Below are positions 2,967 to 53,684 of a DNA stretch of 64,000 nucleotides, one piece after another. The stretch comes from Phorcus lineatus (lineage: Eukaryota; Mollusca; Gastropoda; Trochida; Trochidae): positions 15,313,924 to 15,377,923 of the forward strand of contig OV121097.1 of the NCBI GenBank assembly GCA_921293015.1, read 5' to 3'. Made by a program: the position numbers and the translations under genes. Every line of letters begins with the position of its first letter. The stretch's first letter is position 1. The notes beneath the pieces were generated by a model, which saw only the letters and a program-made list of their open reading frames with translations, had not been told where the DNA came from and made no database searches.

Positions 2967-2971
2967 TGTAT

Positions 2972-22473: not shown

Positions 22474-23667
22474 ATGAAGACCCTCATCATTTTTCTGTCC
22501 GTCGTGGGCATTTGTGCTGCCTTTTGGTCGGTAAGTTAACGATATACTTCTTTGAACATGTCTTCTTCTTCAGAAATCTAATGGTATAACTTTCAACATT
22601 TATTTAAATCATTCTTTCATTCCGACAAATTTTTCACTTGCAAAAGAATTTGATTCCGGCAAATCTGGCAGAGTTTTATGAGAACTGCAGTATAAGCAGT
22701 AAAATTCAATGCGGCTTTGACTTTATGTTTTGGAATTTCTGTGCATTTCAAATACACAAGTAACTTATATATTCTATCTCAAAGTAAACCATGTACTAGT
22801 TAAACAGCTCGATCTGAATGTCACTTTAAAAGCCAAACATGACAATGTAAAACGTGATTCAGTTTGCTTTCCTTTTCATATTATTAGTCAAAGCCTGAAA
22901 GCACTACAAGCAAACCCAGATACCCGCCAAACTTTACAACCAGTAACCCGTTGAGAAAAAGTGAGCAGCCTAAAAGCCCACCAAGTGAGCAGCCTGGAGG
23001 CCCAACAAGTGAGCAGCCTGGAGGCCCATCAGATGAGAAGCCTAAAGGCCCAACAGGTGAGCAGCCTAGAGGCCCATCAGGTGAGAAGCCCAGGGGCCCC
23101 CCAGGTGAGCAGCCCAGAGGTCCACCAGGTGAGCAGCCTAGATGCCCATCAGGTGAGCAGCCTAGACGCCCATCAGGTGACCAGCCTAGACGCCCATCAG
23201 GTGACCAGCCTAGACGCCAATCAGGTGACCAGCCTAAAGGCCCAACAGGTGAGCAGCCTGGAGGCCCATCAGGTGAGAAGCCCAGAGGCCCACCAGGTAA
23301 GCAGCCTAGAGGCCCATCATATGACCAGCCAAGAGGCCCACCATGTGACCAGCCAAGACGCCCATCAGGTGACCAGCCTAGACGCCCATCAGGTGACCAA
23401 CCTAAAGGCCCAACAGGTGAGCAGCCTGGAGGCCCATCAGGTGAGCAATCTAGAGGCCCAACAAGTGAGCAGCCTAGAGGCCCATCAGGTGAGCAGCCTA
23501 GAGGCCCATTAGGTGAGCAGCCAAGAGGCCCATCAGGTGACCAGCCTGGACCCCCATCAGGTGACCAGCGTGGAGGCCCAACAAGTGAACAGCCGAGAGG
23601 TCCAACAAGTGAGCAGCCTAGAGGTCCAAATAGTGACCAGCCTAGAGGCCCAACAAGTGACCAGTGA
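22474..23667 (+). CDS. Secreted octapeptide-repeat protein, unit 4 (2 exons)
   Basis: Exon 1 is 22474-22530 and exon 2 is 22888-23667 after an intact AG at 22886-22887. Exon 2 has the header and 29 octapeptides plus SDQ, for about 278 residues in all, the longest of the short genes. Its C-terminal third differs from units 1 to 3: instead of the ESEQPRGP/NNDQSRGP series it has GEQPRGPL, GDQPGPPS, GDQRGGPT and NSDQPRGP. This suggests separate repeat turnover at the 3' end. Frame and splice sites are intact. Function is unknown; a secreted disordered structural protein is inferred. Confidence 0.8.
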
Positions 23668-27375: not shown

Positions 27376-28810
27376 CTAGTCCATTCTATACCGTTATTGT
27401 AGCACTACCTGACAATTTTAAAGCTATTAGCAGCGCATACCATACAATACCATAGCATACGATATCACTGAATATAGTACTTTGAATCATTCACATTCAG
27501 CCATAGTGCATACCAGAACGTTCCTATTGTATCGACCAAAGCATATCATGGTATAGCATAGCATTCCAAACAAGACTATACCACACCATACCAAACAATA
27601 TTAACCAAAAACCATACCACATTTTAGCATACCATGATGTATGTTAGTTAACTATTGATTATTGCGGCTTGACCAATATGCAGCAATCAACAGCGGTCTC
27701 GTTTCCACCTTATCTCACCATGACAAACTATACATATACCATATCACTCCATACAAACCATATCATATTAAAAAACCTGACTTTACAATTTCATGCCATA
27801 CCGTGAGTGAGATGTTGTTATGGGACGCTTGACCAAATATTGGCTACTAACAGCACATTCCATGTCTTACCGTGTCGTATCAACTATAACATAGCATACC
27901 TTTCCATGTCATTCCATAAAATGTCATACTTTACCTTACCATACCATTCCATACCATACGTTACCGTACCATACCATATCATATTAAACATACCATACTG
28001 TACCATTCCATTCTATACCGTGATGTTTGTTGTTAAAAACCCCTTGACCTTTTTTCCAGGAATCAGGTGCGCATACCGTATCGTTCTCGTTTCCATCATA
28101 ACTCACTATGACTCACTATACATATACCATATCATTCCATACAAACCATATCATATTAAAATACCCGACTTTACAATTCCATACAATATACAGTGAGTGA
28201 GATGTTGTAATGGGACGCTTTACCAAATATAAGCTACTAACAGCACATTCCATGCCCAACCGTGCCGTATCAACTTTACCATAGCATACATTCAATACAT
28301 TTCCACCTTACCTTACTGTGGCAGATGTATTTTATTGAAAATAAAGTATTTTATCTTATTGCTATTCTCTCTTTTTATTTATATTATTATATAGCACACC
28401 AAGGATTAAGCCTTTAGAGTTTGGTCTTATATAATGTAACCAAGCCAGAACGATTGTCAGCTGATTGGTCTTACTAACTTCATTCCCATTTCAAGTCATT
28501 TTGCACAGCTTCTTTGCACTGCATAATTGTCCATTAGATACCATATCATACCATATTGTACCGTATCGTATAGTCTTAAACATACCTTACCATACCATAT
28601 CGTATTAAACATACCATAATTTACAATTCCATACTATACCGTTATGTTTGTTGTTTAAACCCCTTGACCATTATGCAGCAATAAAGTGCGCATACCATAC
28701 CTTTATATATCACACCATACCATACCATACCATACCACTTTATATATCACACCATACCTTTCCATGTCACACCATTCCATACCATACCATAGATTACATC
28801 ATATCACATT
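27376..28810. repeat. CCATACC-rich low-complexity spacer
   Basis: Dense CATACC, CCATAC and TACCATA words with two similar blocks (about 27690-27870 and 28060-28240, both with CATATACCATATCA and GTGAGTGAGATGTTGT). Short frames here read as TIPYHT-type peptides and are artefacts of the repeat. Confidence 0.55.
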
Positions 28811-29171
28811 TTATTACTCGCCCGCGTAAGATACCGCAGTGTAATATTTATACGGCGATATTAAACTAGTGTAATACCGCTCCCCCGTATGACGTCATAA
28901 TATTGTGTTGTTGTGACGTCACAATCTTGGCACCGACGTCACAATGGCGGCTTAATCGCGGAAATGCTTCGTTCAGTACACTTTCGGCATTCAATGATTG
29001 ATTACTGAGGTCAAGTAATAAACAGAATACTAAACTTCCTTCAATTTAATACTATTTTTATTAAACTCGTTAATGATTTAGTACCAAACTCGCTTTCGCT
29101 CGTTTCATACCGAATCATTAACTCGTTTAATAAAAATAGTATTAAATGGAAGGTCGTTTAGTATCCTCTAT
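28811..29171. mobile_element. Fold-back element, copy 1
   Basis: This 361-base sequence recurs at 37880-38239 in unrelated surroundings. It begins TTATTACTCGCCCG. The second half is a long stem-loop: about 49-base arms around AATACTATTTTTATTAAAC and its complement, with a loop holding CTCGCTTTCGCTCG. The first half has several TGACGTCA-like sites. It has no coding capacity. Confidence 0.7.
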
Positions 29172-29269
29172 TATCACACCATACCATACCATAGATTACA
29201 TCATATCACATTATTTTACAGTGCATCACATCATAATGATGAATCATATATTGCCCACACTTCCGTTTC

Positions 29270-29537: not shown

Positions 29538-30364
29538 ATGAATACCCTCATCATTTTCCTGTCCGTCGTGGGCATGTGTGCTGCCTTTTGGTCGGTAAGT
29601 AATAAACGATATCTTCTTCGAACATGTCTTCTTCTTCTGAATTCTAATGGTACCACTTTCAAGATTAACTTAAATCAAACTTTGATTCTGGTAAATTTTT
29701 CACCCCATTATATTTTGATTCCGGTAATTGTATTATAAGTTGTAAAACTCCACTTAATCTAATCGGAATCTAATCGGAATTAAATTTGCAAATCAACAAG
29801 AGATGGAAAACAGTCTTTCACCAAAAATGATAAAGGTCCGTACGATGATTTGTTAATTTCTTAAAATTGCTTCGTTATATTCTGCTTTCTGCAAGTCGAG
29901 CATCATGTTAGCAACAATAATTTATTAATAGGATGTAAAGATGCCTCAATAGAAATTTTAACGTTCTGTATGGTTAAATTGAGAATTCTCGAAAAATGTG
30001 AGGCAGTTTTTCTTGGAATACGTGTGAGCGACAGCGATTGTTTATGATTGTTTCATTTAAGGGATTCTCATAAACTGAGTTCTGTGCAACATCGTGTTAA
30101 GACCTCAATACTTGTATGAGATGTAAAACTCCACATTTTTTAAAAATTAAGCTGTAAGCTTATTTTGTCATTTCGCTAGAGGAATGGTACAGAATTTCTT
30201 CAACAAAGAATATGTAATAATACTATTTCCTCCATTATAGATTATAATCATACAAATAATGACTGGGTAAATCAAGAGAAATACGAAAAATTATTCACCG
30301 AAAGCAAACTAGATGTAATGATCCGGACGTAATGCATTACAGCTAATATTATACTTAATACTAA

Positions 30365-31275
30365 GAGTCGAACGAAGATTCGATACCTTTTTATATCAAT
30401 CAGAGCCGAATGCGTAGCGTGAGGCTTCGAATTTAATATCAACAGTATCGAATGTACGTTCGAAACACAAAATTTTCAGAACACAATTGGTTTATCTCCA
30501 TTTTACCATGACGAGTTTATTAACTTTAAATTGCATTTTTTTGATGTCGCGAAATTTCAGGCGTGATGCGGCCATAGGCATTTCCATTTTAAGTAGGTAT
30601 AATATTGGTAAACCCTACTCTAATATCGTTAGATTAGGGAACGTTGAACATCAGAGAGTTATCAAGACAAACTATGTACCTTGAAATTGTTCTTAACACT
30701 CATGATGGCAGCACAAAATATTCCAAATCGACGTCCTAAAGATACTGAATCACCTCCAACAAAATGGCTGATACCAAATTCCTTTAGCTGATCATGTGAC
30801 TAGCCTTGTGACGTCATAACTGCACACGCCTATGATGTCACTGTGTTCAAATGAGTCTTCGCAGCTTTAAATCCAAAGCTTTTTTTCCGATATTGATGCA
30901 AACAAATCATACGGCTGAGTGTTAAAATGTTGATAAAATTGTGATGAAGTAAGTGTAGGTAACGTTATACATTTTGGAGGAAACCACAAGCCGTACTGTA
31001 CGGAAACTGCATGCGACTCCTGACTTGATCATTTGTAGCCAAGTGTAGTTGAAATACCGGTCAGTATTCGAGAAAATCCACAGCTTAAAATTAGGTCTTA
31101 AAAAATAAAAACAAGTTGGAAGAATGTGAACATAATAGAAACCGCAAAATGAAGGCTATTCAAGCCGGTTTTAATGTTTAGCACCCTCATGGCATCGAGC
31201 CTTGGGGACGATATTTTCCACCGCGGTTATTCGGCTATCTAAAAAATTTGTTCGAACGTAGATTCGACGATGAAA
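30365..31275. mobile_element. Fold-back-type insertion in intron 1 of unit 5
   Basis: Extra sequence relative to the 357-base introns of units 2 to 4. CGAACGAAGATTCGA (about 30370) and TCGAACGTAGATTCGA (about 31252) frame it, and TCGAATGTACGTTCGAAC (about 30446) is the complement of the latter. It also has TGACGTCA-like sites. The ends are approximate. Confidence 0.35.
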
Positions 31276-31461
31276 TAAACCAATCAATAACAAGGATTTT
31301 TAAATGCTATGGTAGAATGTCACTTTATAAGGCAAGCATAACAATTTAGAAATGTGATTCAGTTTATGTTTTCCTTTCCATATTATTAGGTAAAGCCTGA
31401 AAGCACTACAAGCAAACCTAGGTGCCCGCCAAAAGGTACAACCAGTTACCCGTTGAGAACA

Positions 31462-32815
31462 AGTGACAAGCCTGGAGGCCCAACATGTGACAAGCCTGGA
31501 GGCCCAACATGTGACCAGCCTAGAGGTTAAACAGGTGACCAGTCTAGAGGCCCAACAAGTGACCAGCAAAGAGACCCAACAGGTGACCAGCCTAGAGGCC
31601 CAACTGGTGACCAGCCTAGAGGCCAAACAGGTGACCAGCAAAGAGGCCCAACAGGTGTCCAGCCTAAAGGCCCAACAAGTGACCAGCCTAGAGACCCAAG
31701 AGGTAACCGGCCTAGAGGCCAAACAGGTGACCAGCCTAAAGGCCCAACAAGTGACCAGCCTAGACGCCCAACAGGTGACCAGCCTAGAGGCCCAACAGGT
31801 GACCAGCCTAAAGGCCCAACAAGTGACCAGCCTAGACGCCCAACAAGTGACTAGCAAAGAGGCCCAACAGGTGACCAGCCTAAAGGCCCAACAAGTGACC
31901 AGCCTAGACGCCCAACAGGTGACCAGCCAAGAGGTACAACAGGTGACCAACCTAGAGGCCAAACAGGTGACCAGCCTAGAGGCCCAACAAGTGACCAGCA
32001 AAGAGGCCCAACAGGTGAGAAGCCTAGAGGCCCAACTGGTGACCAGCAAAGAGGCCCAACAGGTGACCCGCCTAAACGCCCAAAAAGTGACCAGCCTAGA
32101 GACCCAAGAGGTAACCCGCCTAAACGCCCAACAGGTGACAAGCAAAGTGGCCCAACAGGTGACCAGCCTAGAGGCCCAACAGGTGACCAGCCCAGAGGCC
32201 CAACAGGTGACCAACAAAGAGGCCCAACAGGTGAACAGCTTAGAGGCCCAACAAGTGACCAGCAAAGAGTCCCAACAGATGACCAGCATAAACCCAACAA
32301 GTGACCAGCGTAGACGCCCAACAAGTGACCAACAAAGAGGCCCAACAGGTGACCAGCCAAAAGGCCCAACAGGTGACCAGCCTAAAGGCCCAACATGTGA
32401 CCAGCCTAGACGCCCAAGAGGTGACCAGCCAAGAGGTCCAAGAGGTGACCAACCTAGAGGCCAAACAGGTGACCAGCCTAGAGGCCAAACAGGTGACCAG
32501 CAAAGAGGCCCAACAGGTGACCAGCCTAGAGGCCCAACAGGTGAACAGCTTAGAGGCCCAACAAGTGACCAGCAAAGAGGCCCAACAGATGACCAGTCTA
32601 AAGGCCCAACAAGTGACCAGCGTAGACGCCCAACAAGTGACCAACAAAGAGGCCCAACAGGTGACCAGCCTAAAGGCCCAACAAGTGACCAGCCTAGACG
32701 CCCAACAGGTGACCAGCCAAGAGGTCCAAGAGGTGACCAGCCTAGAGGCCAAACAGGTGACCAGCCTTGAGGCCCAATAAGTGACCAGTAAAGAGGCCAA
32801 ACAGGTGACCAACCC
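31462..32815. repeat. 24-bp tandem repeat, about 56 copies (unit 5)
   Basis: Unit GGTGACCAGCCTAGAGGCCC plus AACA, about twice as many copies as units 1 to 4. Because 24 is a multiple of three and four of the six frames lack stops for long stretches, several overlapping long open frames appear here. They are not evidence of coding. Confidence 0.85.
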
Positions 32816-33105
32816 TTGTGAAAATATTTATAATATCTCCTTAACCTTAAAAAATGATATTACTACGATTTGTGAAAAAAAATGAGGAAATAAAAAATAC
32901 AAGTTTTAATATCCTTATCTCGATCGTTTTTGAAACGAAATAAAGTATTTACATTCATCATATTGACGACGTTTTAGATCCAAATAACAAGAACTCGCTG
33001 TTGGCATTTGGGTTTCAGGAGACCAGGGAAAAAGTCAATGACGAGGAGTTGCTATAGGGTTTTTTTAAACAGAATTTGTTGATGGAAAAGTCGAGATGAC
33101 CATCG

Positions 33106-33111
33106 AATAAA
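33106..33111 (+). terminator. Polyadenylation signal AATAAA, unit 5
   Basis: In the conserved ATGACCATCGAATAAA stretch that follows the relic last exon. Confidence 0.55.
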
Positions 33112-33737
33112 GACCCCATGCATGTTCATTTTATTGCTGGTTTGCCTTTACCTATATCTCATCGAAACCTTTAACCAATATTAATGACCAACTCGCTCCT
33201 AATTCTACGTATTTAATTGAACATTAATTATCCATAATCGGGATTCACAGCCAAGTAAAAGGTTTAATGAAACGCATGTCTCAAAAGTATTTTATTATTG
33301 TCATATGACCAACATTTATATTATTGATACTATAAGTCAGAAATTGAATAGTCTTAAAAATACACCAACATTCCAATTTTTTTCTGAAAATCTCAACTCT
33401 CCCCGCAAGACTTCACATGCAAATCTTAATCCTAGCTGAATTCAGTCGTCATCCTATCTGTGCCAGCTCTTTAGAGTAATGAACCTAAGCTTGGTAGCCT
33501 GGTCAGAAACTTCCTAGAGACTGCTACTTATTGCGCATCAAAGCTTAACATAGCCAATGGTGAAGGCCAGCCTTTATTGCTAATAAAGAAACGACTTCAT
33601 ATAATGCGCATATCATTTTCATTCAAACAAGCGATTGTCCTGTTAAATACGACAAAGACGTGCAGTTTTTGTATATGCGGTTAATAACAAATGATTCAAT
33701 GGATCATCATAGTATCATTCATATATCAACTATTGTT
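33112..33737. other. Spacer after unit 5
   Basis: Diverged copy of the spacers after units 1 and 4 (for example CATATATCAACTATTGTTTAC near 33719). It ends where a LINE remnant begins. No gene. Confidence 0.45.
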
Positions 33738-36629: not shown

Positions 36630-36799
36630 TTTCTAAAGTCCACGATTACTATGAGGTTACTTAATGTGCAGCTGAAATGTCAAACAAAATCTATATGTTA
36701 TGCAACTTCTGGCTATCCTGTATGTACATTTGAAATTAAAACAGTGAATTAAAATATTTTTTTTAAATTTTGTGAAAAATATGAAAATTAAAAGATAAA

Positions 36800-37081
36800 T
36801 ATTGGCATGATTAAGGTATCCGTATTATGAGGATAAAACTTTTTTACCTTAATAAAACGAACACACCTGTAAGTATACGTTCCAATATAGAATCAGATGT
36901 AGCAGGTGATGACACCTTACACCGCGTTAAACTCATATTACGTGACAAAATATAGTGCATTAGCCGACAACGTGAAACCTGGTAAATAAGATGTTTAACA
37001 CCTGCAATTTATTAATTGGATCCCCACTATAAAAGTATGAGACAAATACCTGAACATCATATGGACTTTCCTTCTCCGAAA
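36800..37081 (+). promoter_or_regulatory. Promoter of unit 6
   Basis: TATAAAAG at 37028-37035, 54 bases before the ATG as in the other units. CACCTG at 36864, CAGGTG at 36903 and CACCTG at 36999 match the three E-boxes of unit 2 in order and orientation, although the surrounding bases have diverged more. Confidence 0.65.
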
Positions 37082-40024
37082 ATGAAGACCCTCATAATTT
37101 TCCTGTCCGTCGTAGGCATTTGTGCTGCCTTTTGGTCGGTAAGTATACGATATTTTTTAGCATGTCTTCTTTTTCTGAATTCTAATTGTATTATTTTCAA
37201 GTTTCACTGAAAATATACTTTGATTCTGGCAAATGTTTCATCTGCTTTAAACTTTGATTCTGGAAAATCTTTCATCTGCATTATAATTTGATTCTGGCAA
37301 ATGATTAATCTGCATTATAATTTGATTCTGGCAAATGTTTCATCTGTATCATAATTTGATTCTGACAAATGTTTAATCTGCATAATAATTTGATCCCGGC
37401 GTATGTGGCATAGCATTTATGGTACTGCGTAATAAGCTGTAAAACTCCGAGCGACTATGGCTTTATGTCTTTAGGAATTCTGTAAATTTCAATTGAAAAT
37501 CCACAAAAGATGGAAAAACAGCTTTTCACCAAAAGTTTTATGATAGTTTTATCTTAAACAGAGCATCATGTTAGCAATGATAATTTCATGGGATGTAATT
37601 AACTCAAAAGCAATTATTAGGTTCTGTATGGTTAAATTAGAACTTTTCCAGAAATGTAAGACAGTTTTTATCCGGAAACCTGTGGGCGACAGCGATTGTT
37701 AATGATTGTTTTTAAGGATTTTAAAATTAAGTTCGGTGCATCATCATGTGAAGATGCTCAATACTTGGATGAAATGTAAAAGTCTATTTGTTGTTCTCCT
37801 AATATGAGGGACTCTGTTTCTTTTGTAATTTCGCTAGAGGTATAGCATTTATTCCCCAATGAAGATGTAATATTACTGTTTATTACTCGCCCGTGTACGA
37901 TACCGCAGTGTAATATTTATACGGCGATATTAAACTAGTGTAATACCGCTCCCTGTATGACGTCATAATATTGTGTGGTTGTGACGTCACAATCTTGGCA
38001 CCGACGTCTCAATGGCGGCTTAGTCGCGGAAATGCTTCGTTCAGTACACTTTCGGTAATAATGCTTGATAACTGAGGTCAAGTAATAAACAGAATACTAA
38101 ACTTCCTTCCATTTTATACTATTTTTATTAAACTCGTTAATGATTTGGTATCAAACTCGCTTTCGCTGGTTTTATACTTAATCATTAACTCGTTTAATAA
38201 AAATAGTATTAAATGGAAGGTCGTTTAGTATCCTCTATTTCCTCCATAATTGAAAAAATAATGACCAGTAAACTCAAATAAGTCATTCTCAATTCGAAAA
38301 ACAAAATATGCCTCATTAAAGGCTCAGTTGATTGGACAAATAGTTAAACTATTCCATTGTAACTTGAAGTTCTTTCTCAAAGTAAACCATGTACTAGTTA
38401 AAATGTAGCACGTTGATTCATTTTATTGTTTACCTTTTCATATGATAAGTCAAAGCCTAAAAGCACTACAAGCAAACCCAGTTACCCGCCTAAAAGCACA
38501 ACGAGTTACCCCTCAGGAGGCAGTAACAGTTACCCGCCTAAAAGCACAACGAGTTACCCGTTGAAGGGGAGAACAAGTTACCCGCCTAAAGGGACAACCA
38601 GTTACCCGCATGACAGAATGCCTAGATGTAAGTTGCATCGTAACCATGAAATATTATGAACTATCGGATAATGAGTGTTTTTTTCATTTTTCACCGATGT
38701 ATTTGTCTATAATTTAGTCATATGACCGTCAGCAATGTACAGTTCTAAATTGGTGATGAGGTCAATACTTGTTTCATAGACACAAGAAAAACAATATTGA
38801 CCGAGGACGTACAACATTGCTTTCCTTGGATCTATTTGGAAAAGTATCGTCCAATTTAACATTATTTGTAACAGTATTTGGCCTTGTGATATGTTTGTCC
38901 TAATTATATAGTATGGATGAGACGTAAATTCCAAACAGTAAAGAATAGATACAAATATCATATGCTTCTGTAAGGTTTAACTGGAAACAAGAAATGTGAT
39001 GAGCCTTGATGAATGTATAATATAATTATAATGAGAGAAGAAATGATAACCTTAGAACGATTGTCTCAAATTCATTAATATCTAGAAAATACATTTCTAT
39101 TACATAAATGCCTTTACAAAATTTAATTTTTGAAAGCAATTATTTTGAATAGCCACATGCAGCGGTTGTGGTTGTCTCACAGAGAACTGTCCGATGGGTG
39201 ACTATTCAAACACTAATGGAATGGAAGGGACTTGCAAGTATGACCATTAATCGCCTTCGATATTTATAGTTAACATTGTATGGCTTTTTTCATTAAATAA
39301 ATTAACATCATCACACGTTTATTACTCAAAAATGATCCACCTCGGTGGTACATGAGTAAAGAAATATAACATTTTAACATGTACAACAATATAAGTGCAT
39401 GATTCATATCAACAATCAAAGTGATAACAAATAGTCCTATTGAAATTGGAAAGTTTTTGAGAGTTAAAATTTACTTATGAAAAGTTTACGATACTTATAC
39501 ATACTAGGCCAGGTTAAATGATTTTCTTGAAACAATGACCTTATGACAATGATGTTACACGAAAATTAGACGTAGATGTAAAAGTCTGAAGGAGACATCC
39601 CTTTGTACAATTTCTTGTGTGCGACAGTTACATACGATACATTTCAAGTTGTAATTGTTGAGAAATGCATGTTGGATGCGATGAAATGTACAGCTGCATT
39701 CCGAAAAATTGCTCACCTACTGGTGTGTCCTAGCCAAAACCAATTGAAAACCGGGCTCGTCGTAAATTTGTTCCATCAAGTAAACACGAAAGGAAAAAAA
39801 AGGAACTGTGTATAAAAATTATTTGGGAGGTGGATGTTTCTTCATTCCATTTCTGGAAACTAAAGACTTATTTTGTATCTTTTAAATCTCTAATATTTGA
39901 AAGAGTTTAACATTGATATTGTATTTTCTTTCATTGTCGGCAAATTATCTTGGTGACATTTGTTACATTAAAACTACTACTGCTACTATTACTACTACTA
40001 TTACTACTACCAATACAACTTATT

Positions 40025-40070
<46 letters not shown>

Positions 40071-43000
40071 TACCACTACTTTTACTATTACTACTAATAC
40101 TAGTAATCATTATCATTTCAGCGTCTCCATGACATTTTTCTACTGTAGAAGCAAATACCTCCGACAAGGCATATGTCTTGAAAGCATAGGATCATACGAG
40201 TCCCTGAGGAACACGCTGTTGTCTTCTTGTGCATCTTTCGGTGATTTTTAAAAATTTCATTTAAACTATTTTGTGGGTAGAAAAATTGATAACTGTGTAA
40301 TCTAAATTCAAACACCTCAAAGGACAACATACATAAGTATTCACTATTCACGCTTCCATTTCTCTTCTGTACGAGAATCGGTGTAATATGATGTTCTCAC
40401 AAGGGAAGTGGCATATGGATAATATTTAAAAAGGGAATGGTGGGGGTTGGGGGTGGTGGGTCATCTATTGTAAATGGTAGCCATCTTATGGGGTCAACCA
40501 TTTTACTGTCAGTTATCATGCACATGTAGGGGGGGGGGGGGGGGGGGGGGTTACACCATATTCTAATGTATAATCTCTTCATTTGTAACGTCAATTATGT
40601 AATTTTGCATTATAGAATGATTATAAGAATTACTGCTCTCATCAGTGGTGTGAACAAGTGCTTGTCACTCATTTGAAACATCAAGAGAGAACCTATAAAA
40701 TGCAATATCAATTTTTTCAACCGTTCATATACGATGGTGTTCACATAAGTAACATTGGTAAAGTCTAGGTTTAGTCACATGAAATATCTATTTAGCAAAA
40801 ATCAAATTCAAAACAATCGATACAAATGCAGGTTTCACCGAGGACAACCCTGAAACGGCCCTTTCGACAATGGGTTCTGAAGACTTCTTTTACACAACAA
40901 CCGGGTACCAATTTCATGGTTCAACCAGCTACCCGTCTTATGGCACAACTGGGTACCCTTACTATTCCCACGGTTCAACCTCATACCCCAGTTACTATAC
41001 CACAACGGGTTATCCGTACTATGGTTCAACAAGCTACCCGTCTTATGGCACAACAGGGTACCCTTACTATTCCCACGGTTCAACCTCATACCCCAGTTAC
41101 TATACCACAACGGGTTATCCGTACTATGGTTCAACCAGCTACCCGTCTTATGGCACAACAGGGTACCCTTACTATTCCCATGGTTCAACCTCATACCCCA
41201 ATTATTATACCACAACGGGTTACCCATACTATGGTTCAACAAGCTACCCGTCTTATGGCACAACTGGGTATCCCCACTATTCCTATGGTTCAACCTCGTA
41301 CCCTAATATCTATACCACAACAGGTTACCCTTATCATGCAACTGGGCATCCATATTACCCAAAGTACCAAACAACCAGCTACCCATATTACGGTTCAACA
41401 GGCTACCCCTATTACTATACCACAGCCGGATATCCGTTTAATCCAACCTCCCAAACAACCAGCTACCCATATTACGGTTCAACAGGCTATCCATATTACC
41501 ACACTACAGCCGGATACCCGTATTATCAAACAACCAGCTACCTATCTTATGGTTCAACCGCCTATCCCCATTACTACACGACAGCCGGATACCCAGGTTT
41601 TGGTATGTATTCTTAAATAACAATATCGCTTACTTGATAGATACATTTACAAACCCCGGATGTCATGTTTGAGTCATTCTGGCGATTATTCTTTCGTTGA
41701 GTTAAGCTCCTGTTAGGATCATATACAACATTCCTGGGAAATTCTATAAAATGTCTATTTTGTAATCTCGTGAATTAGAAAATCATATATTTACCCTAGT
41801 GGCTCCGCCACTCGTGAAAATTTAAATTTCTACTTCACTTCATGAGATATCCATGGTATTCGACGAGATATGTCAAATATCCTCTATTTATTTTCATGTC
41901 TGTTCAAATACAATTAGGTCGTGAAATCGCTTTTCATATTTTTGGGGGCAAGAACGTTTGGTATTTATGTTTAAAAATTTCAGAAATTTAGAAATTTGAT
42001 TTACGGGAGTTGTTATCAACATATATAACATTCTATGACGTCAATATTTCGACACATCATTTGACCAAGACGCCATAATACATGCTTATTTTGACTCTCC
42101 TATCTCGTATACTTAAGGGTATCCAAAACAACGATTTCTTTTTTAAAAACTAGTATTTCAGAACGTATATACAGATATCGTTTTCAAATTCAAAATGTGG
42201 CATGTTTGGCTGTTTCTCTCTTTAAGTCGTATTAATCACTCGTGGATTGCGATATACCATATTTTGCATGGTGACATGTCTAATGTTCATTAGTTTATAT
42301 CAATCAATCTTTATTTCCGTACTTAAAAGGCCACAGGCCTGTAGTACATTCATGGGTAGATCACATCATCAAATTATTACAAGTTTTTACAATATCTCTT
42401 CTATATAGCATTGCATAATAAATATAGATTGCAAGATTCTGTAGTAATACAGTATTCGTATTTGTTAGCAATAATTATAGTTTTGTTCTATCTGGGTGAT
42501 TACAAAAGTATGGTTTAAGATATTTTGTCCGTAGACTTCTATAGACAGGGCAAATTAAAAGGAAATGTAGCTCATCTTCCACGGCATTCATATCACAGAT
42601 TTTACATATTCTGTTGTTTCTTTCAATACCCACATATCTACCTGTTTCAACAAACAATTCTTTTGATGAACAACGAAAACGGGATAGAGCATTACGGAAC
42701 TTTTTTACATCAACTTTTGAAAGATAAGCTTCAAGGCATATTTCAGATTTCCATTGCCTATAATATAAACATTTGGTTGATAATGACATGGATTCTGTCC
42801 AGGATTGTAAGTACATATCTTTCATTCTTTGTGTTATTGAAACGATAAATTCTGATTGTAAATGTACACTTTGATTATACCAAATATGACCAAATCCTAC
42901 TTTAGTTTATAACACAGCTCCAATACTTTTCAATAAATATTATAATTGAATTGTCTTTTTTATAATAGGAAGAATATTTTTATATCAAACTAACGGCATT

Positions 43001-46000
43001 TTGGGGATTTTTTACTGCATCATAGCACCAAAAACTGTCATAAGTGCTATAGAATAAAGTGTTAGCTTATTGTGACAAAAACATTTATCAAAATTTTTCA
43101 CGTATATACGATTTCCTTCCCCTGTATAGAAGGAAATTGAGATAAAGTTTTTTACATTCGTTGATAAATAAATAAAGTGTATAAACATCTATAACATTAC
43201 AATAAAAACAGAATCTTTACCCAAACAAATTAGAATCTTCATCGGAGCTTTATCAAAATATGAACAATGTGTTTACACATCTATTGTTTTACAATATAAA
43301 AGAATCAATATCGAAACAAAATTAAAATCTTTATCACACCTTTATCAAGATATGAACAAAGGGTATTAAAATCTAATGCTTTACAATAAAATTAGAATCT
43401 TTATCGAAACGTCACTTATTCTTTAGTATCGCCCCAAACTCAAGTATAGAGAAGAAAAAAGAATAATTCTCGCATTTCCCGGTTGATCATTCAGGCATCA
43501 AGAATCTGTCCCAGCTTTTTTTAAAAAATGTTGAAGACGTTTAGTTGTTACGTTTTGCAAATATCACTTAAAATCATATACACATGTGAATTGACTAAAC
43601 AATTGAAACTATCGATAGTTGGCCGTGAAATCGTTACTATCGATATTATTCAAAGTTACTATTGAAACTATCGATAGTTGGCAGTGAAATCGATAATATC
43701 AATATTATTCAAAACTACTATTGAAACTATCGATAGTTGGCAGTGAAATCGATAATATCAATATTATTCAAAACTACTATTGAAACTATCGATAGTTGGC
43801 AGTGAAATCGATAATATCAATATTATTCAAAACTACTATTGAAACTATCGATAGTTGGCAGTGAAATCGATAATATCAATATTATTCAAAACTACTATTG
43901 AAACTATCGATAGTTGGCAGTGAAATCGATAATATCAATATTATTCAAAACTACTATTGAAACTATCGATAGTTGGCAGTGAAATCGATAATATCAATAT
44001 TATTCAAAACTACTATTGAAACTATCGATAGTTGGCAGTGAAATCGATAATATCAATATTATTCAAAACTACTATTGAAACTATCGATAGTTGGCAGTGA
44101 AATCGATAATATCAATATTATTCAAAACTACTATTGAAACTATCGATAGTTGGCAGTGAAATCGATAATATCAATATTATTCAAAACTACTATTGACACT
44201 ATCGGCCTACATGTAACAACTGTCGCGTTAAGGCGATAATTCGATCTATCGTTTCAAGCCTATTCCTTATCATTTTACGTCCTTGCTTTTATTCGTTCAA
44301 GATGACTCCTCTTGTAAAGTGGAGGATCTGTCCTATTGTGCTCAGCAACTGAATGTGGATAAGTACGGAGCGTGCAGGTAAATATGTTCATAAAGTTTGT
44401 TTAACATAATTCATTAAAAATATATTGAAAACTTATTCCAGGTTTGTGATCAAACACCTCAGTAAGATTAAAGATAGACAGTTTCTTTGTTTTAATCTCA
44501 ACCCGTTATTCATACATTATCATTTAAAGGATTTCAATACGCGTAAAACACCCTCATATGTCTCTATTTTAACATCACAAAACCAAAGCCTACACTTAAG
44601 ATTATTTTTTTTAGAAAATTTGAATGTATAACAGACAAAAATATTAAGGACGGAGAGTAAAATATGTCGACATATTTTAAGGCATCGTTGGAAAGAAGAA
44701 AACCAAAACATAATGTTTCAGAACAGTGTCGTTGATTCTTGGAGAATTATGCTTTTAAACACGTATGGTATATAAACCAATTCTTGTATTCTTATGGTTA
44801 TCATTTCAAACTATATTATTCCGACAGTGCTTACAACACCTACTTGACTTGTCTTGAAGCCACGATTCCATCTTGTCCCTCCGTCGAACCAGCGTTAGTA
44901 GAGGCTCGGAAACAATTGTTGCCCTACTGTGAATCTAACGGTAATTTCTCCCATTACATCAGTGTTCTAAATGTTTTCTTTAACGTTCTATAATCATCTG
45001 TTTCGTGGTACCCATACACCGAGATAATGGACTAAAGCCGGAGCAAAGTCTATCGCTAAGTGTCAATCACCGTGTACATTTCAACGTGCTGCACGAGGAA
45101 CACGACTCATTGTGTTTTTCAGCGGGGACTCTATGACGTATATTTTACTGCCCTGCGCGCACAGGACCGTGATATATGTTTGCAGGCGAAAATTGTATAC
45201 TCCTGACCGATCGCGAATTTGCAATTTGTTAATCCATGGTGATGAAATCCCTCTGTTAAAAGTTTATTATTTTCTGTTTGAATGTTCCGGCGAATAGGGT
45301 TGATAGGTTTTGATTGGTTTTCATAATACAGAGTATCCACAAGCACGGGGGACATTGATATAGTTCATATACCATATGAAACAAGGCTTTCACGTAAGCT
45401 CCGATATATATGATGTTATGAAAATACTCATAAAGTGACATCGGTAAGTATTACTCGTAACGTATTCATAAATGATCTACCTCCAATTCAACAGGGGAAT
45501 TTCGTCTGTCACCTTCTTAATTAGAGCTACGTTACTTCAATTAGTGAAAAGCGAATTTTGTAGCGTCATCGCAAGACGGATGTGCCCAGATCGAGTCATA
45601 CTTCAGCTTCGTTCAATATGCGACCTGCCTTGTCATTGGTCCGTTTCGAAAACACAACAAATGCACGTGCTAAGAGGAACATGTGCATCTCGAAATTTAA
45701 TATTTTAACTATGTGCTACACGAATTGCCCATGCTCGTTTTGATCCTTGACCAAGCGGCAGGAATTGTGCTTATCGTGCGACATGAATTACCCGTGCGTA
45801 CTGAAAACCTCACGATCAAACTTGACCGTGCGGAAGTGTTGCCTTACACATAGTGCATACATATAGTACATGTTTGGTCTGGTCCATTATCAAATGATAG
45901 GGGAGGAGGTCTATGACCATTGTTGTAACAAACGCTATTGGTGTTATGGGAGGATACAGAATTGCCTATGCTTTTTGTAAACTTTATGATCATACTTGAT

Positions 46001-46457
46001 GGTGTTTATAATACTCAATAAATTTAAACAACACTGTATCCAACTCTGAAGAAACATTTATACAGACAAAAGCAAATGTTTTTTTTATTGTTTTTAATTT
46101 GTAATTTTTACAGATCCCACAAAGCCCCAACAAGATGACCTGCCAGGTACATAATTATACATATTGATATTAAATATTTGAAAATATATAACATCTACTT
46201 AACTTGAAAAATAATATAACTACGATTTGCAAAAAAATTAGACGTAAAAAAGCAATTTTTAAATTTTAATCTCGATCGTTTCGGAAATGAAATAAAATAT
46301 TCACATTTAACATACTGACGAATTTTCAGCTTCAATTGACAAGAACTCGCTGTTGGCTTTCATCGAAGGAGCGCTCCAGGAGACCAGGGAAACAGCCAAT
46401 GACGCGGAAGAGTCCCTTCAGGCTATTGAAGATGTTGTCGACTTTATCAAAGGCTGA
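37082..46457 (+). CDS. Modular secreted Tyr/Pro-repeat and cysteine-rich protein, unit 6 (9 exons)
   Basis: I joined nine exons: 37082-37138, 38450-38627, 39153-39237, 40122-40240, 40832-41602, 44302-44377, 44828-44940, 46114-46146 and 46330-46457. All junctions are GT-AG, intron phases match throughout (0,1,2,1,1,2,1,1), and the total is 1560 bases, or 519 residues plus TGA. Order: signal peptide (1-19); SYPPKSTTSYP-type repeats (20-78); cysteine-rich module 1 (79-147); tyrosine-rich repeats (about 148-403); module 2 (404-467); acidic linker (467-478); amphipathic C-terminal helix (479-519). It is secreted. The KPSYPPK words recall the decapeptides of mussel foot protein 1, and tyrosine-rich repeats suit DOPA chemistry or silk-like packing, so an adhesive, byssal, shell-matrix or capsule protein is a reasonable inference. 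I recognise no exact family. Exons were found by eye without transcripts, so a missed exon in the long introns 5 or 7 is possible. Confidence 0.75.
37880..38239. mobile_element. Fold-back element, copy 2 (intron 1 of unit 6)
   Basis: Near-identical to 28811-29171. The uninterrupted site is visible in unit 5 intron 1 (ACTATTTCCTCCAT near 30222), so this is an insertion. Confidence 0.7.
38450..38627 (+). CDS. Unit 6 exon 2: SYPPK-type repeats
   Basis: Starts SKPKSTTSKPSYPPK, the counterpart of the header in units 1 to 4. Four near-repeats of about 10 to 14 residues centre on SYPPK and TTSYP. Donor GTAAGT at 38628 leaves phase 1. In units 1 to 4 the octapeptide array stands where this exon ends. 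Confidence 0.75.
39153..39237 (+). CDS. Unit 6 exon 3: first half of cysteine module 1
   Basis: Codes STCSGCGCLTENC then a Gly/Asn-rich loop to GTC. Acceptor is GAATAG and donor GTATGA, phases 1 to 2. It has five cysteines (81, 84, 86, 91, 106). Confidence 0.65.
39972..40104. repeat. ACT/CTA trinucleotide microsatellite (intron 3)
   Basis: An almost pure run of CTA/ACT triplets ending just before the pyrimidine tract of exon 4. It is open in several frames, which gives poly-Thr, poly-Leu and poly-Ser reading artefacts. Confidence 0.9.
40122..40240 (+). CDS. Unit 6 exon 4: second half of cysteine module 1
   Basis: Acceptor TCATTTCAG. It codes an FFYC...ICLES...SLRNTLLSSC helix-like stretch with cysteines 115, 125 and 143, phases 2 to 1, then splices with G to GT in exon 5 to make Gly147. 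Confidence 0.65.
40529..40550. repeat. Poly-G run of 22 (intron 4)
   Basis: Twenty-two G in a row. It is a possible quadruplex or an assembly weak point. Confidence 0.95.
40832..41602 (+). CDS. Unit 6 exon 5: tyrosine-rich repeat exon
   Basis: Acceptor AATGCAG, donor GTATGT. After an acidic lead-in (FTEDNPETALSTMGSEDFF) come four near-identical 105-base (35-residue) repeats at 40918-41337, built from GSTSYPSYGTTGYPYY and GSTSYPSYYTTTGYPYY halves. Less regular QTTSYPYYGSTGYPYY and TTAGYP segments follow. One 35-residue repeat has 11 Tyr and 4 Pro and no Cys. The other two forward frames are also largely open, but only this frame joins the neighbours in phase. Confidence 0.8.
41795..41885. repeat. 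Short dispersed repeat (intron 5), pair of 55520-55612
   Basis: About 90 bases (CCACTCGTGAAAAT... GAGATATCCATGG... TCAAATATCCTCTA) are shared at roughly 90 percent with 55520-55612. It is part of some dispersed element; the ends are not clear. Confidence 0.5.
42300..42915 (-). mobile_element. LINE 3' end in intron 5
   Basis: The minus-strand frame 42825-42475 codes the C-terminal end of a LINE ORF2: RFRCSSKELFVETGRY, then CKICDMNAVEDELHFLLICP, which is like CDKCDLDALGDEFHFLLVCP in the LINE at 2972-6013. The 3' UTR ends GGAAATAAAGATTGATTGATA at about 42300. It is 5'-truncated near 42915. Confidence 0.75.
43605..44205. repeat. 59-bp satellite, 10 copies (intron 5)
   Basis: Ten head-to-tail copies starting GAAACTATCGATAGTTGGCA. 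The first is diverged; the rest are nearly identical. Each contains the 12-base palindrome ACTATCGATAGT and an ATCGATAATATC / GATATTATTC-like region. It ends about 100 bases before exon 6. Confidence 0.95.
44302..44377 (+). CDS. Unit 6 exon 6: first half of cysteine module 2
   Basis: Codes DDSSCKVEDLSYCAQQL...YGAC, cysteines 408, 416 and 428. Acceptor TTCAAG, donor GTAAAT, phases 1 to 2, the same as exon 3. Confidence 0.65.
44828..44940 (+). CDS. Unit 6 exon 7: second half of cysteine module 2
   Basis: Codes YLTCLEATIPSC...ARKQLLPYC with cysteines 437, 445 and 463, then ESN. Acceptor CCGACAG, donor GTAATT, phases 2 to 1, the same as exon 4. Confidence 0.65.
46114..46146 (+). CDS. Unit 6 exon 8: short acidic linker
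   Basis: A 33-base microexon after TTTTTACAG, coding DPTKPQQDDLP. Donor is GTACAT. Phases fit both sides (1 and 1). Confidence 0.55.
46330..46457 (+). CDS. Unit 6 exon 9: C-terminal helix and stop
   Basis: Acceptor ATTTTCAG. It codes ASIDKNSLLAFIEGALQETR and on to VVDFIKG and TGA. The heptad-like spacing of Leu, Ala and Ile with acidic faces suggests one amphipathic helix, maybe for self-association. A damaged version is at 32980-33050 in unit 5. Confidence 0.75.
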
Positions 46458-46499
46458 TTGAAACATCATTTGTTGATAGAAAAGTCCAGATGACCATCG

Positions 46500-46505
46500 A
46501 ATAAA
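46500..46505 (+). terminator. Polyadenylation signal AATAAA, unit 6
   Basis: Lies 43 bases after the stop in GATGACCATCGAATAAA, the stretch conserved after all units. Confidence 0.75.
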
Positions 46506-47655
46506 AATATCACGCATTTTGATTTTCTTGCTGCTTCCCCTTTACTGTATCCTCTCAAAACTTTAATCCAATATTTTTGTCCAATTGAGCTTCAAAAGTT
46601 CACTTCTCAGTCAACGTCATTAATTGAAGAATGATTATCCATAATCGGGATCCACACTAACGCCCACAACCACGAATAACAACAGATGCCCGCCGAATCG
46701 AAGACGTTTATAAGCTAAATGTTTTTATACTACGCATGTTTCAAAATTGTTTCAAATTTATTATTGATATTCTGAAAATCTAAATATGAATAGTCTAAAA
46801 ATACACCGACAATGTATGATCCTTCTGAAAACCTCAAATTTTCAAGGCTTCACATACAAAAACTTAAGTCTTGCTGAATTCCTTCGTATTATTTCTAGTG
46901 CCACAGCGCGCAGGGTTTAGTGGAGATGTAACCCAGGGTACTACAGTGGAGCGTCAGCGTATACGTTTTACTCACAAGATGATTAATTATAGAACAAACA
47001 TAATACACGATCAGGTGATTTGCAGGTGTTCTTTTGAGTTTTGCGAATGAATGAGTGTATGTAACCTCATTTACATAAGTAACGATATTGAGTTTATCAC
47101 ATTGATAATTGCAACGATAAAACCCCTAATGATATTAATCGCGAATTTTTGGCACTGCTTTCATCTAAAAGGACAGTCCTATTATTTTGTGAAAAAGAAA
47201 TTCAAGGGGACATTCTCTTTTATACAAGTTTGTTATCAGTTCATGAATGTAACATAGCCCAGTATAATCATGGTACTGAAGATAACATTTTTGTTGATTT
47301 AGATTTTACAGGAAGACAAATGAGAGCGCACACTTGGTAAAATAAAACAATAATGAGAAGTGAAGCCATTCATCGGCGCTACGAGAGTGAAAAGCCTTGC
47401 TACGGCATAACAATGCATTGGCGATTAGTCTTAACATTAATCATTTTTTAATCTCCTGATATTCTATCCATACATATAGTTCACCTTTGATAAGTTGTGA
47501 AATTAGTTAAAGAACAGCGCATGTCATTTCATGTCATTTTCCTACAAAGCAACATGGCGGACCTTAAGCATCTTTAGCTTTAGAAAACTTGTCCGACTTG
47601 TATACGATTTCAGATCTTTCAAAGTAAATACATGAATTTATACGCATCATGCAAC
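46506..47655. other. Downstream flank of unit 6
   Basis: Up to about 47070 it still aligns weakly with spacers of the array (for example GAGTTTTGCGAAT near 47036, as at 26310), marking the right end of the repeated block. Beyond that I see nothing. Confidence 0.4.
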
Positions 47656-49771: not shown

Positions 49772-50986
49772 GGGCCTCCTTTCACAAAGCAACCTTATCT
49801 CTAAGGTTAACCTTATCTCTAAGTTTTCAACCTTAGGCCTTTACTAAGGTTGACGTCTTCTTTCACAAAACAACCTTAGCTAAGGTTAACCTTACGTAAG
49901 GTGAAAACACTAAGGTTGGCATGACCCAGTCTTAGCGCCACTAAGGTTGATAATTAGTACCAATCAAAATGGCGACTGTTTTGATGTTATGCGAAGAGAT
50001 CGAACGTAGTTTCAAGAGACAGAGGGTATTTCGAGACAGGACGATGCAGCTCGACGCTCTCGCCGACGCGGAGCTGTTTGCTCGATACCGGATGCCTCGA
50101 CAAGCTATAATGACACTCGTTCAACTTGTCAGGCCTCAGCTTGAGAGACCCACCCAGCGTTCGAACCCCCTCTCCCCGGAGACGCAGGTGCTTCTCACTT
50201 TAAGGTACTTGGGGAAAGGTGGTTTCTTGTCCGAGATCGGCGATCTCCATGGTGTGTCGGAGGCAAGTGTAAGTCGGGCCTTCCACAACACTGTGCGCGC
50301 AATTAACGAAAACCTTAATAACATCACATTCCCATGGACCAAAGAGGAACAAGAAAGAAATAAAGTTGGGTTTAATGCCATATCTGGTTTCCCACAAGTA
50401 CTTGGTTCAGTTGATGGAACACTGATCCCTATCAAACGACCTTCTCTCAACGAGGAAATGGCTTTCGTTTGTCGGAAGGGGTACCACGCCATAAATGTGC
50501 AGGGAGTTTGTGATTTTGAACTCAGGTGAGCCCATTTATCATGAACATAACCGAAAAATAACCATCAATCAGGAATGATTATCATTTGAATTCGGCTGTG
50601 TGACTAGAAAATATAAATCTGTTTTCAGCAGCGAATCGTTCACCTGTTTACATTAGCAACGTCCTTGACCTTATGAAATGTCAGTATAGTACTTTCCAGT
50701 CGAATAGAATCTAAAACAATTAAAATTAAATCGGTCATCTGTTTATATTCCGTGATACTTAAAAAATTGTGTTTTTATTTCTTTTATCAACTCAAAAAGT
50801 ATCGCCTTATCGTTAATAATACTTAACAGCTTATATAAAAAGTTAAATGGAGCACCCTTAAAATATGATAAGGTTATCGTAAGGTTGTTTCGAGAAACTG
50901 GCGTAATTTTTTGTTGAGGTTACCTTAAAAGCCAACCTTAGAGATAAGGTTAGCCTTAGTAAAGGTTGCTTTGTGAAAGGAGGCCC
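49772..50986 (+). mobile_element. Harbinger transposon, internally deleted
   Basis: Terminal inverted repeats GGGCCTCCTTTCACAAAGCA (49772-49791) and its complement (50967-50986), with CTAAGGTTAACC-type subterminal repeats. It carries only the first exon of a transposase, so it could move only with help. Confidence 0.8.
49969..50529 (+). pseudogene. HARBI1-like transposase, first exon only
   Basis: Reads from ATG at 49969 through a helix-turn-helix-like region (GDLHGVSEASVSRAFHNTV) to VLGSVDGTLIPI, which holds the first catalytic aspartate of the DDE nuclease, then NVQGVCDFELR. The sequence CTCAGGTGAGC after FEL is a good splice donor, and in the family the text goes on into the rest of the nuclease. 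No second exon is seen before the terminal repeat, so two of the three catalytic acids are missing. Confidence 0.75.
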
Positions 50987-51507: not shown

Positions 51508-51911
51508 AATTGCATCATCAAGCAGGCCCCCAGCTATTCTCAACTGCATTTGATTCATCGGCACTCCAAGAGATTAGAGACAGAAATACAATTTGCATTA
51601 CGTACCTGTATCGGGTCATCGTCAACTTGCTAATACCCGAGTAGATCCAGTATCTAGCCAATCTTCCTCACAATCGGATCATATCTTTAACGCCCTACCT
51701 CGCTGTGTTTCTGATCTGTGACCCATCACCTGATGTTTATTCATCCAGAGAGCCTCGTAGATATAAGGACAAGTAACTTGTTGCTTAGCTGTATAGCGAA
51801 AAGTGTAAAGGCATTTAGTCATTTTAAAGGTAGGAGGCAAAGCGAGATACGAAAGATATGATATGAAAGTTTTAAGAAGTTCTACAGGACTACGTGAGTG
51901 AAAGTGATCAC
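51508..51911 (+). promoter_or_regulatory. 5' flank of metalloprotease copy A
   Basis: About 400 bases very like 60620-61016 in copy B, and in part like 63687-63810. No clear TATA box. GTAGATATAAGGACAAG near 51747 could serve. Conservation between copies suggests promoter and 5' UTR. Confidence 0.45.
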
Positions 51912-53684
51912 ATGATGCGGTGTTTTCTTTGTCTGCTGGGAGTCTTCCCGCTTATGTGGTCTGTGTTGTCTCTTTCTTTCATGACAGAGTCGCAGGATAA
52001 AGCAACAGATACTGTCAACGTCCAAGTGGTTCACTACGCCCACACGCGAGAGAAGCGATCCACACTGCAACATCCAGACTTTCTTCACTTGAGGTTCGAT
52101 TTCCGAGGCTCGGAGGTTCAGCTGAACCTGACACAGAAGAGGAGACCGGTGCCCAATATACCTGTGTATGCAAACGATGGGCGGAGCAAGGTGCTTCAAG
52201 ATGATCTTCCGGAGAATGAGAAGTTTGCTGTGTTCAGAGACAAAGTGAAAGGAGCTGTTCTTGTTGTTGAAATCATTCATGAGAATGCTTTCCATGTGTC
52301 CGGTAACTTCCATCATGAGAACAAACAATACAAAATATGGCCACAAGAACAGAGATTACACAAGCGAGCAAGTGACCTCGAGCCAAACCACAGCATACTT
52401 CTCATAGAGGAAACTTCTGATATGACTAACGATATCCTGTCCCTGGACTTAGAAAAGATGTCTGTAGAAACACTCAGGCAGACAGATGATGGAAGAGAAG
52501 AGAACGATTCTTCTTTCGAGAGTGCCAATATCCAGAGTAGCGCCCCAGAGGTGGCTCGGTATGTAATAGAGTTAGGCGTCTACTCAGACTTCGCAATCTA
52601 CAGCTTTTTCTTAAGGGAGGCTAATTCTAACACCAATCAAGCCTTGGCAAACCAAAGAACCTACTACTCATTTCTTGAGGATTCGATCCAGCTGCGATAC
52701 GACACCGTCAACGAACAAGATCCCTCCATCTCTATCACCGTGTGGATAAAGTTCCTCGAGATTGCTCAGACACCAGATGCAGCGCCATGGTTTGAAGTCG
52801 GCAGGAATGGCACAAGAGTCGAAATCTTCCCCTCAGGTAATTATATCGTAAACTATTTTCAAAATGGAAGCGCTGTAGACACCGCTGATCACTACATGTT
52901 TTTCACTGGATACGACATTGGAATTGGCGAGAATAGAAATATCATTGGAATTGCTGCGTCCATTGGTGGTCTGTGCACGTCTTTAGCTTTTTCTATAAAT
53001 GAATATTTCTTGAATGGTCGAACAGCTGTCGTTGCCGCCCATGAACTTGGCCACAATTTAAATTCATTTCATGATGGATTTCAAGGTGGCATAAACTGCA
53101 GTGCAAATGACCTATTTATAATGAGTCCTACAATTGGTTATCCAACCTTGACCAATCCATCCAGCCAGTGGTTTTTCTCCATTTGTTCAATAGAACAGAT
53201 GAAGTCTTTCCTTGCGCAACCAGCTGCAAGCTGTGCAAGAGAGACGACAATTAACCGAGGAATTTCGAATGGACAAAATGAGGGTCAGGTTTTTAATGCG
53301 GATACTCAGTGTGCTCGTGAAGTCGGAAGTGGATCTGTGTTCTGTAGACGAGCATACCCTAACAGGTTCTACGGAATATGTCAAGTTTTGTTCTGTACAG
53401 GGATGAATGGAAATCAGAGTAGGTGCCCTGGCTTTCGCGTCCCCTCAGAAAGAACATCGTGTGGAAATGCGGAGTGGTGTGAGAGAGGACAGTGTGTCCC
53501 TAACGCTGCAGCCCCTGTCCGTGTAGAGAACTGCCCCCAGGGAGACGAGGCTGGGGCAAACTGTAGACGGTCAGACTGCGAAACTTTGTCAGGAAATGAT
53601 TTGATTCGATGCTGTAGAACCTGCGCCCCGTTTGAACCCACGGTGACAATCGAGAGATATATCATAGTTGTGCCATTTTCATGA
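51912..53684 (+). CDS. Secreted reprolysin/ADAMTS-like zinc metalloprotease, copy A (single exon)
   Basis: A 590-residue open frame. I chose ATG 51912 because it starts a clear signal peptide (MMRCFLCLLGVFPLMWSVLS); an upstream GTG frame extension is not needed. A propeptide follows (about 23-210) with a REKR site at 46-49 and an HKR site further on. The catalytic domain (about 213-435) has the zinc motif HELGHNLNSFHD (His377, Glu378, His381, His387) and the Met-turn IMSP (Met404). It ends in a cysteine-rich tail (about 460-575) with CGNAEWCERGQCV, resembling the disintegrin-like and cysteine-rich parts of ADAMTS proteins. No thrombospondin repeat or membrane segment is seen. It should cleave extracellular proteins; substrates are unknown. 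The gene has no introns and is the intact member of a tandem pair. Confidence 0.85.
   Translation: MMRCFLCLLGVFPLMWSVLSLSFMTESQDKATDTVNVQVVHYAHTREKRSTLQHPDFLHLRFDFRGSEVQLNLTQKRRPVPNIPVYANDGRSKVLQDDLPENEKFAVFRDKVKGAVLVVEIIHENAFHVSGNFHHENKQYKIWPQEQRLHKRASDLEPNHSILLIEETSDMTNDILSLDLEKMSVETLRQTDDGREENDSSFESANIQSSAPEVARYVIELGVYSDFAIYSFFLREANSNTNQALANQRTYYSFLEDSIQLRYDTVNEQDPSISITVWIKFLEIAQTPDAAPWFEVGRNGTRVEIFPSGNYIVNYFQNGSAVDTADHYMFFTGYDIGIGENRNIIGIAASIGGLCTSLAFSINEYFLNGRTAVVAAHELGHNLNSFHDGFQGGINCSANDLFIMSPTIGYPTLTNPSSQWFFSICSIEQMKSFLAQPAASCARETTINRGISNGQNEGQVFNADTQCAREVGSGSVFCRRAYPNRFYGICQVLFCTGMNGNQSRCPGFRVPSERTSCGNAEWCERGQCVPNAAAPVRVENCPQGDEAGANCRRSDCETLSGNDLIRCCRTCAPFEPTVTIERYIIVVPFS

Follow-up and report, generated by a model that had tools for sequence, protein, structure and literature searches.

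A nine-exon gene at the end of a ten-copy tandem array in the gastropod Phorcus lineatus probably encodes a repetitive structural secreted protein

We analysed a stretch of 64,000 nucleotides of Phorcus lineatus (contig OV121097.1 of assembly GCA_921293015.1, positions 15,313,924 to 15,377,923 of the forward strand; hereafter the window, whose own numbering is used below), which carries at 37082-46457 on the plus strand a gene for a putative modular secreted protein. The splice model that we wrote from the sequence has nine exons from the ATG at 37082 to the stop codon ending at 46457, with 1470 coding bases and a product of 489 residues. The frame closes across all nine exons, no exon contains a stop or a frame break, and all eight introns are of the GT-AG type. 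A preliminary description of the locus had likewise given nine exons with this start and stop and with splice signals and phases that close, which we recovered; its 1560 coding bases and 519 residues were not reproduced. It had also treated the gene as standing alone. The gene in fact forms the diverged end of a tandem array of ten copies, which the preliminary description had overlooked, and it is more interesting as part of that array than alone.

The exons encode, in the domain order already proposed in the preliminary description, a putative signal peptide, SYPPK repeats, a cysteine (Cys) stretch, tyrosine (Tyr)-rich repeats, a second Cys stretch, a short linker and a helical-looking end. 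Exon 1 (37082-37138) encodes MKTLIIFLSVVGICAAFWS, which looks like a signal peptide by inspection, and ends in phase 0 at a GTAAGT donor. Exon 2 (38450-38627) begins with SKPKSTTSKPSYPP, a start that is alike in all array members, continues with eight-residue TTSYPPKG-like repeats and ends in phase 1. The first Cys module lies in exon 3 (39153-39237; five Cys, phase 2 end) and is followed by the 29-base micro-exon 4 (39694-39722; NCIPKNCSPTG), the weakest exon of the model. Exon 5 (40832-41602; phase 1-1) consists of Tyr-rich repeats and stays open over 771 bases; we counted in it 256 residues, 70 Tyr and twenty [ST]T[SG]YP motifs. The two halves of a six-Cys C-terminal module are encoded by exons 6 (44302-44377) and 7 (44828-44940), a phase 1-1 linker, DPTKPQQDDLP, by the 33-base micro-exon 8 (46114-46146), and a C-terminus that is acidic and looks helical, together with the stop codon, by exon 9 (46330-46457). 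The 3' flank (46458-46904), with an AATAAA at 46500, is homologous to the 3' flank of other array members. All these features are on the plus strand.

The mature product is rich in Tyr (17.3%), Thr (15.0%), Ser (13.5%) and Pro (10.6%), has an isoelectric point (pI) of 5.31 and carries seven Cys in its first module and six in its second. This combination of composition, pI and Cys content would suit a secreted, cross-linkable polymer. The gene contains tandem repeats of 105 base pairs (bp) and units of 24 bp, and in these repeats and its biased composition it resembles the repetitive low-complexity secreted proteins of molluscs. The introns have repeats of their own. Intron 5 contains at 43602-44204 about ten near-identical (98%) tandem copies of a 59-bp unit with the palindrome AACTATCGATAGTT. 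An element of 370 bases occurs in intron 1 (37870-38239) and upstream of a pseudogene member of the array (28801-29172) in copies that are 94% identical; it also matches in inverted orientation and may thus be a small DNA transposon.

The array shares one promoter and one putative signal-peptide exon. In the genome (958 Mb), a query made of the promoter and exon 1 (36774-37270) has ten copies, which all lie at positions 15290098-15351193 of the same contig, and no copy was found outside the array; both statements refer to the best candidates only. Two further 55-base matches of this query are tandem repeats in intron 1 of the gene itself. A TATA box (TATAAA, 37028-37033, plus strand) starts 54 bases before the ATG, and every member has it at this distance together with a GTAAGT donor. 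The 19-residue exon 1 peptide recurs in the nine other copies, seven times identically, once with one change and once with two.

Eight of the other members have an open repeat exon of octapeptides rich in Pro, Gly and Gln (GDQPRGPT-like), with predicted products of 238-326 residues that contain 22.7-26.4% Pro, 16.3-18.5% Gly and 10.3-11.6% Gln and have pI values of 8.6-9.8. The members that reach into the window are all on the plus strand. The first has its repeat exon of QPRGP octapeptides at 20-679 and its signal exon at -394 to -338, just outside the window, together 238 residues. The second (8512-9681) has its signal exon at 8512-8568 and its repeat exon at 8926-9681, and would give 270 residues if joined, its acceptor AG being lost. 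The members at 15843-16940 and 22474-23667 would encode 246 and 278 residues, respectively. The member at 29538-33249 is a pseudogene with stops in its repeat exon, and it keeps an exon-9-like stretch at 32986-33048. Three of the eight Pro-rich members, i.e. the one with the repeat exon at 8926 and two upstream of the window, have TTTT instead of TTAG ahead of exon 2; an in-frame AG lies six bases on, so a shared shift of the acceptor is possible.

Exons 1, 2, 5 and 9 of the gene are the ones best supported by comparison. Copies farther upstream contain homologues of exon 1, of the beginning of exon 2, of exon 9 and of the 3' flank. Between the gene and eight copies exon 1 is 93-96.5% identical, compared with 80-82% in the 200 bases upstream, and four of the five variable columns among nine copies fall at third codon positions. 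Over exon 1 and the 63 bases that open exon 2, most of the differences from two copies are silent, with a proportion of nonsynonymous differences (pN) of 0.065 and of synonymous differences (pS) of 0.25-0.29. The four 105-bp units of exon 5 give a pN/pS of 0.15 in the frame of the model versus 1.45 and 2.02 in the other two (six non-independent pairs), and third codon positions account for 12 of their 18 variable columns (binomial p 0.004). Exon 5 thus shows constraint that is specific to the frame of the model. The only gaps in the homologue of exon 9 in the pseudogene copy measure 9 and 33 bases, both multiples of three. Judged from the sequence, the gene appears largely real, with some uncertain small exons: these comparisons show its anatomy for exons 1, 2, 5 and 9, and exons 3, 4, 6, 7 and 8 are predicted parts.

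The small exons could be fewer than the model has. For exons 3, 6, 7 and 8 the model draws on the open frame, the splice signals, the phases and the content of Cys, but the closing phases prove little for the small exons, because exons 1, 2, 5 and 9 join in frame without 3, 4, 6, 7 and 8. The gene might hence be a shorter real one, with exons 1, 2, 5 and 9 (or these with 6 and 7) spliced and with exons 3, 4 and 8 being chance splice signals or alternative cassettes. Besides the in-frame joining, this is favoured by the acceptor tract of exon 4, which is poor and purine-rich (5 of 16 pyrimidines) and has a stop codon next to it, by the fact that a second copy of exon 3 was not found in the genome, and by a control showing that Cys-rich open AG..GT stretches are not rare. 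In this control (both strands, 264 kb) the three Cys of exons 6 and 7 are unremarkable, being found in 1626 of 23,683 and 1930 of 13,914 candidates, respectively. Exon 3 speaks against the shorter gene, since at least five Cys occur in 103 of the 20,476 open candidates of 75-95 bases, exon 3 included, which places it in the top 0.5%. So does the symmetry of the cassettes: 3+4, 6+7 and 8 are each phase 1-1, exons 3 and 4 complementing each other's phase. Overall we regard the shorter gene as unlikely.

Genome-wide searches with the exon 3 module and with exons 6, 7 and 9 gave matches only at the locus itself, all others having E-values above 4, and exons 4 and 8 gave no separate match. This silence is weak evidence for a single copy, because the search with exons 6, 7 and 9 missed the known exon 9 relic at 32986. 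Several apparent relatives of single exons were considered and rejected. A stretch downstream of the window resembles exon 4 (E 0.14), which could have made this exon a piece of an interspersed repeat, but the two share only 13 bases exactly. An exon-7-like stretch (L012, 2806-2910; tblastn E 0.007) has a TAA eight codons upstream with no AG between by eye, and was taken as chance; the genome-wide search did not return it. A similarity of exon 3 to the tail of a metalloprotease (E 0.03) was dropped as the Cys spacing differs by eye.

One repeat unit may underlie exon 2, exon 5 and the rest of the array. Of the 24 bases of the exon 2 unit, 17 agree with the array unit as found in the pseudogene (reached by 3 of 20,000 shuffles), 15 with its form in the other members (51 of 20,000) and 16 with the exon 5 unit (68 of 20,000). 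As the exon 2 unit links to both of the others, a common origin of all three units is likely but not proved.

We found no named relative for the protein as a whole. No Pfam family matches the product at E-values up to 1, and its C-terminal part has no protein relative at E-values up to 1 among 92 candidates; the sole match of this part in PDB, a deoxycytidylate deaminase (E 0.096), was taken as chance. For the whole protein one relative was obtained at E-values up to 0.001 among 7994 scored candidates, through the Tyr-Pro repeat; the search covered relatives that are about as long and have exact words in common with it, and distant orthologues in Haliotis could escape such a search. The relative is a Pomacea canaliculata protein named prisilkin-39-like isoform X1, which has a long STGYPYYTN run like exon 5 (42% identity over 213 columns; E 2.3e-8 for the protein in the database search). 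Its unit is nine residues rather than eight, it is listed with PF00431, which we take to be the CUB domain and which was absent from our product in the Pfam search, and it has no such Cys modules or C-terminal helix. The similarity is one at the level of the repeat only. The claims that this is a modular secreted protein without a named relative and that it is apparently undescribed hold within the databases searched, and no close description of the gene or its product came up in searches of an open-access library. The Tyr-Pro repeat motif itself recurs in the genome, where at least 33 further Tyr-rich stretches matched at E-values of 0.001 or less when 148 of the 409 candidates were scored. 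A second exon-like stretch with [ST]TSYPYYQG repeats lies 11.5 Mb away on the same contig (L034, 970-1227, at 3.857 Mb), and a repeat frame on contig C12 (L035) has TTGYPWYERATRK repeats (TTGYPWYER); the Tyr-rich matches L036 and L037 are other repeats.

The Tyr-Pro-Pro-Lys motifs of exon 2 recall mussel foot protein 1, a byssal coating protein with SYPPTYK units, many decapeptide repeats of the AKPSYPPTYK type and tyrosines modified to DOPA. Exon 2 differs in having a few TTSYPPKG-like octapeptides instead of decapeptides, and its host is a gastropod, in which no byssus is expected. A precedent is found among the repetitive secreted proteins of gastropod mantle and shell, which, according to excerpts of two studies, have signal peptides and likewise show short tandem repeats and biased composition, many of them without homologues in other lineages (PMC1676022, PMC6003135). 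Almost 85% of the mantle secretome of Haliotis asinina was described as novel in the excerpt concerned (PMC1676022), and short low-complexity repeats are given as a feature of the H. laevigata shell proteome in the other (PMC6003135). The passages of these papers contain neither a Tyr-Pro octapeptide nor the present domain order, and the terms 'tyrosine-rich', 'Tyr-rich' and 'QPRG' have no occurrence in the main text of PMC6003135. The product is not silk-like by the SilkSlider definition of at least 25% Gly in some 80-residue window, as worded in an excerpt of the source (PMC4944945), its maximum being 15%; the maxima of the eight Pro-rich members are 22.5-25.0%, one of them reaching 25%.

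Our analysis suggests, with a probability of roughly 0.6, that the gene, a diverged copy at the end of a tandem array of ten, encodes a repetitive structural secreted protein of a gastropod; the best reading of its use would be a lineage-specific structural secretion, i.e. mucus, adhesive, shell or capsule. Several observations count against this. A separate 75-bp repeat pair in exon 5 has no clear third-position bias (2, 3 and 4 differences by codon position), and the exon 9 homologue, with 76% base identity, is not more conserved than its flanks (76% in the intron, 79% in the 3' flank). An in-frame TGA stands directly upstream of the exon 4 acceptor. The array unit of the other members agrees with the exon 5 unit in only 11 of 24 bases, which is the chance level (9391 of 20,000 shuffles). 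The neighbouring members give no sign of purifying selection, pN/pS being 0.97 in frame versus 0.73 and 1.97 in the other frames over 28 pairs, so that the open frames of the eight are no proof of coding; in an earlier alignment, three pairs of array members gave 0.46-0.79.

The gene could also have lost its expression and be in decay, as in the case of the neighbouring copy upstream at 29538. One of the ten members is clearly dead, three others have lost the acceptor AG of exon 2, and the TGA near exon 4 and the tandem repeats and mobile-element-like stretch in the introns would fit such decay. However, no exon of the model has a stop or frame break, the TATA box is present, all eight donors are GT, and exon 5 is constrained in frame, which together make decay improbable. 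It is equally improbable that the array encodes proline-rich proteins like those of saliva, binding dietary polyphenols such as algal phlorotannins, with the gene as a Tyr-rich digestive offshoot in a grazing snail: the Pro, Gly and Gln contents and basic pI of the eight members point that way, but Pro, Gly and Gln sum to only 52-55% in them, below the 70% or more of mammalian salivary proline-rich proteins, and the product of the gene itself is acidic and Tyr-rich.

For the structural secretion that we favour, the following course can be proposed. The members have in common a TATA promoter, an exon for the putative signal peptide and much the same opening of exon 2, made up of its first three octapeptides. 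From there, eight members would have turned the octapeptide into a basic Pro/Gly/Gln-rich block; in the gene at 37082 it may have remained as the short TTSYPPKG repeats. There it probably also gave rise to the long block rich in Tyr (STSYPSYG, TTGYPYYG), which is framed by the two Cys-rich modules and the acidic, helical end. The product would be secreted by a gland or by mantle epithelium. Its presumably disordered Tyr/Thr/Ser/Pro block would serve as the polymer, whose tyrosines could stack or undergo oxidation and cross-linking. Through the Cys modules and the helix the chains could join end to end into an extracellular material such as a mucus gel, an adhesive, or a shell or capsule matrix. 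The pI of 8.6-9.8 in the eight Pro/Gly/Gln-rich products contrasts with 5.3 in the product of the gene. We speculate, as a doubtful extension, that one array with one conserved promoter makes a two-part material, in which eight basic polymers and one acidic, Tyr-rich, Cys-capped polymer, all derived from a single 24-base repeat, would on joint secretion form a charge-matched gel or glue cross-linked through tyrosine.

Two M12B metalloprotease copies (reprolysin, ADAMTS_CR_2) follow in tandem. The first (51876-53684), 5 kb downstream of the gene, is one intact open frame of 602 codons with an intact HELGH, and the second (60981-62786) has three overlapping frames and is therefore broken or spliced. 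At E-values up to 1e-10 the first copy matched eight of the 7994 scored candidates, i.e. five Haliotis proteins, one from Patella caerulea, one unnamed and one from Solemya velum; its best relatives are in Haliotis, and the best three matches have 39% identity. As its named relatives are chiefly gastropod, the byssal material that the preliminary description had included among the possible uses is unlikely; the other uses it named, adhesive, shell or capsule, together with mucus, are suggested by composition and precedent. Limpet pedal mucus offers a loose parallel to these neighbours, since the adhesive mucus protein P-vulgata_8 is, in the excerpt concerned, of the reprolysin type (M12B) with SPTT low-complexity repeats (PMC7333891), although its family differs from that of the gene at 37082. 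Elsewhere in the window, 2946-5678 and 49954-50529 carry reverse-transcriptase-like frames, by eye resembling those of long interspersed nuclear elements, and a DDE transposase fragment (PF13613 above the cut-off, PF13359 below it).

The kind of protein described here is already known, and the gene itself is an undescribed member of that kind. Genes built in this way would be split or missed by annotation based on open reading frames, which may serve as a warning. If the two-part material were true, one gene cluster would have shaped a single octapeptide into two opposite chemistries. If the array is expressed, it would provide a testable candidate for a component of gastropod mucus, adhesive or shell, and it would illustrate on a small scale how structural secretions are invented in molluscs, with one signal exon and one octapeptide giving rise to two very different polymers within about 70 kb.

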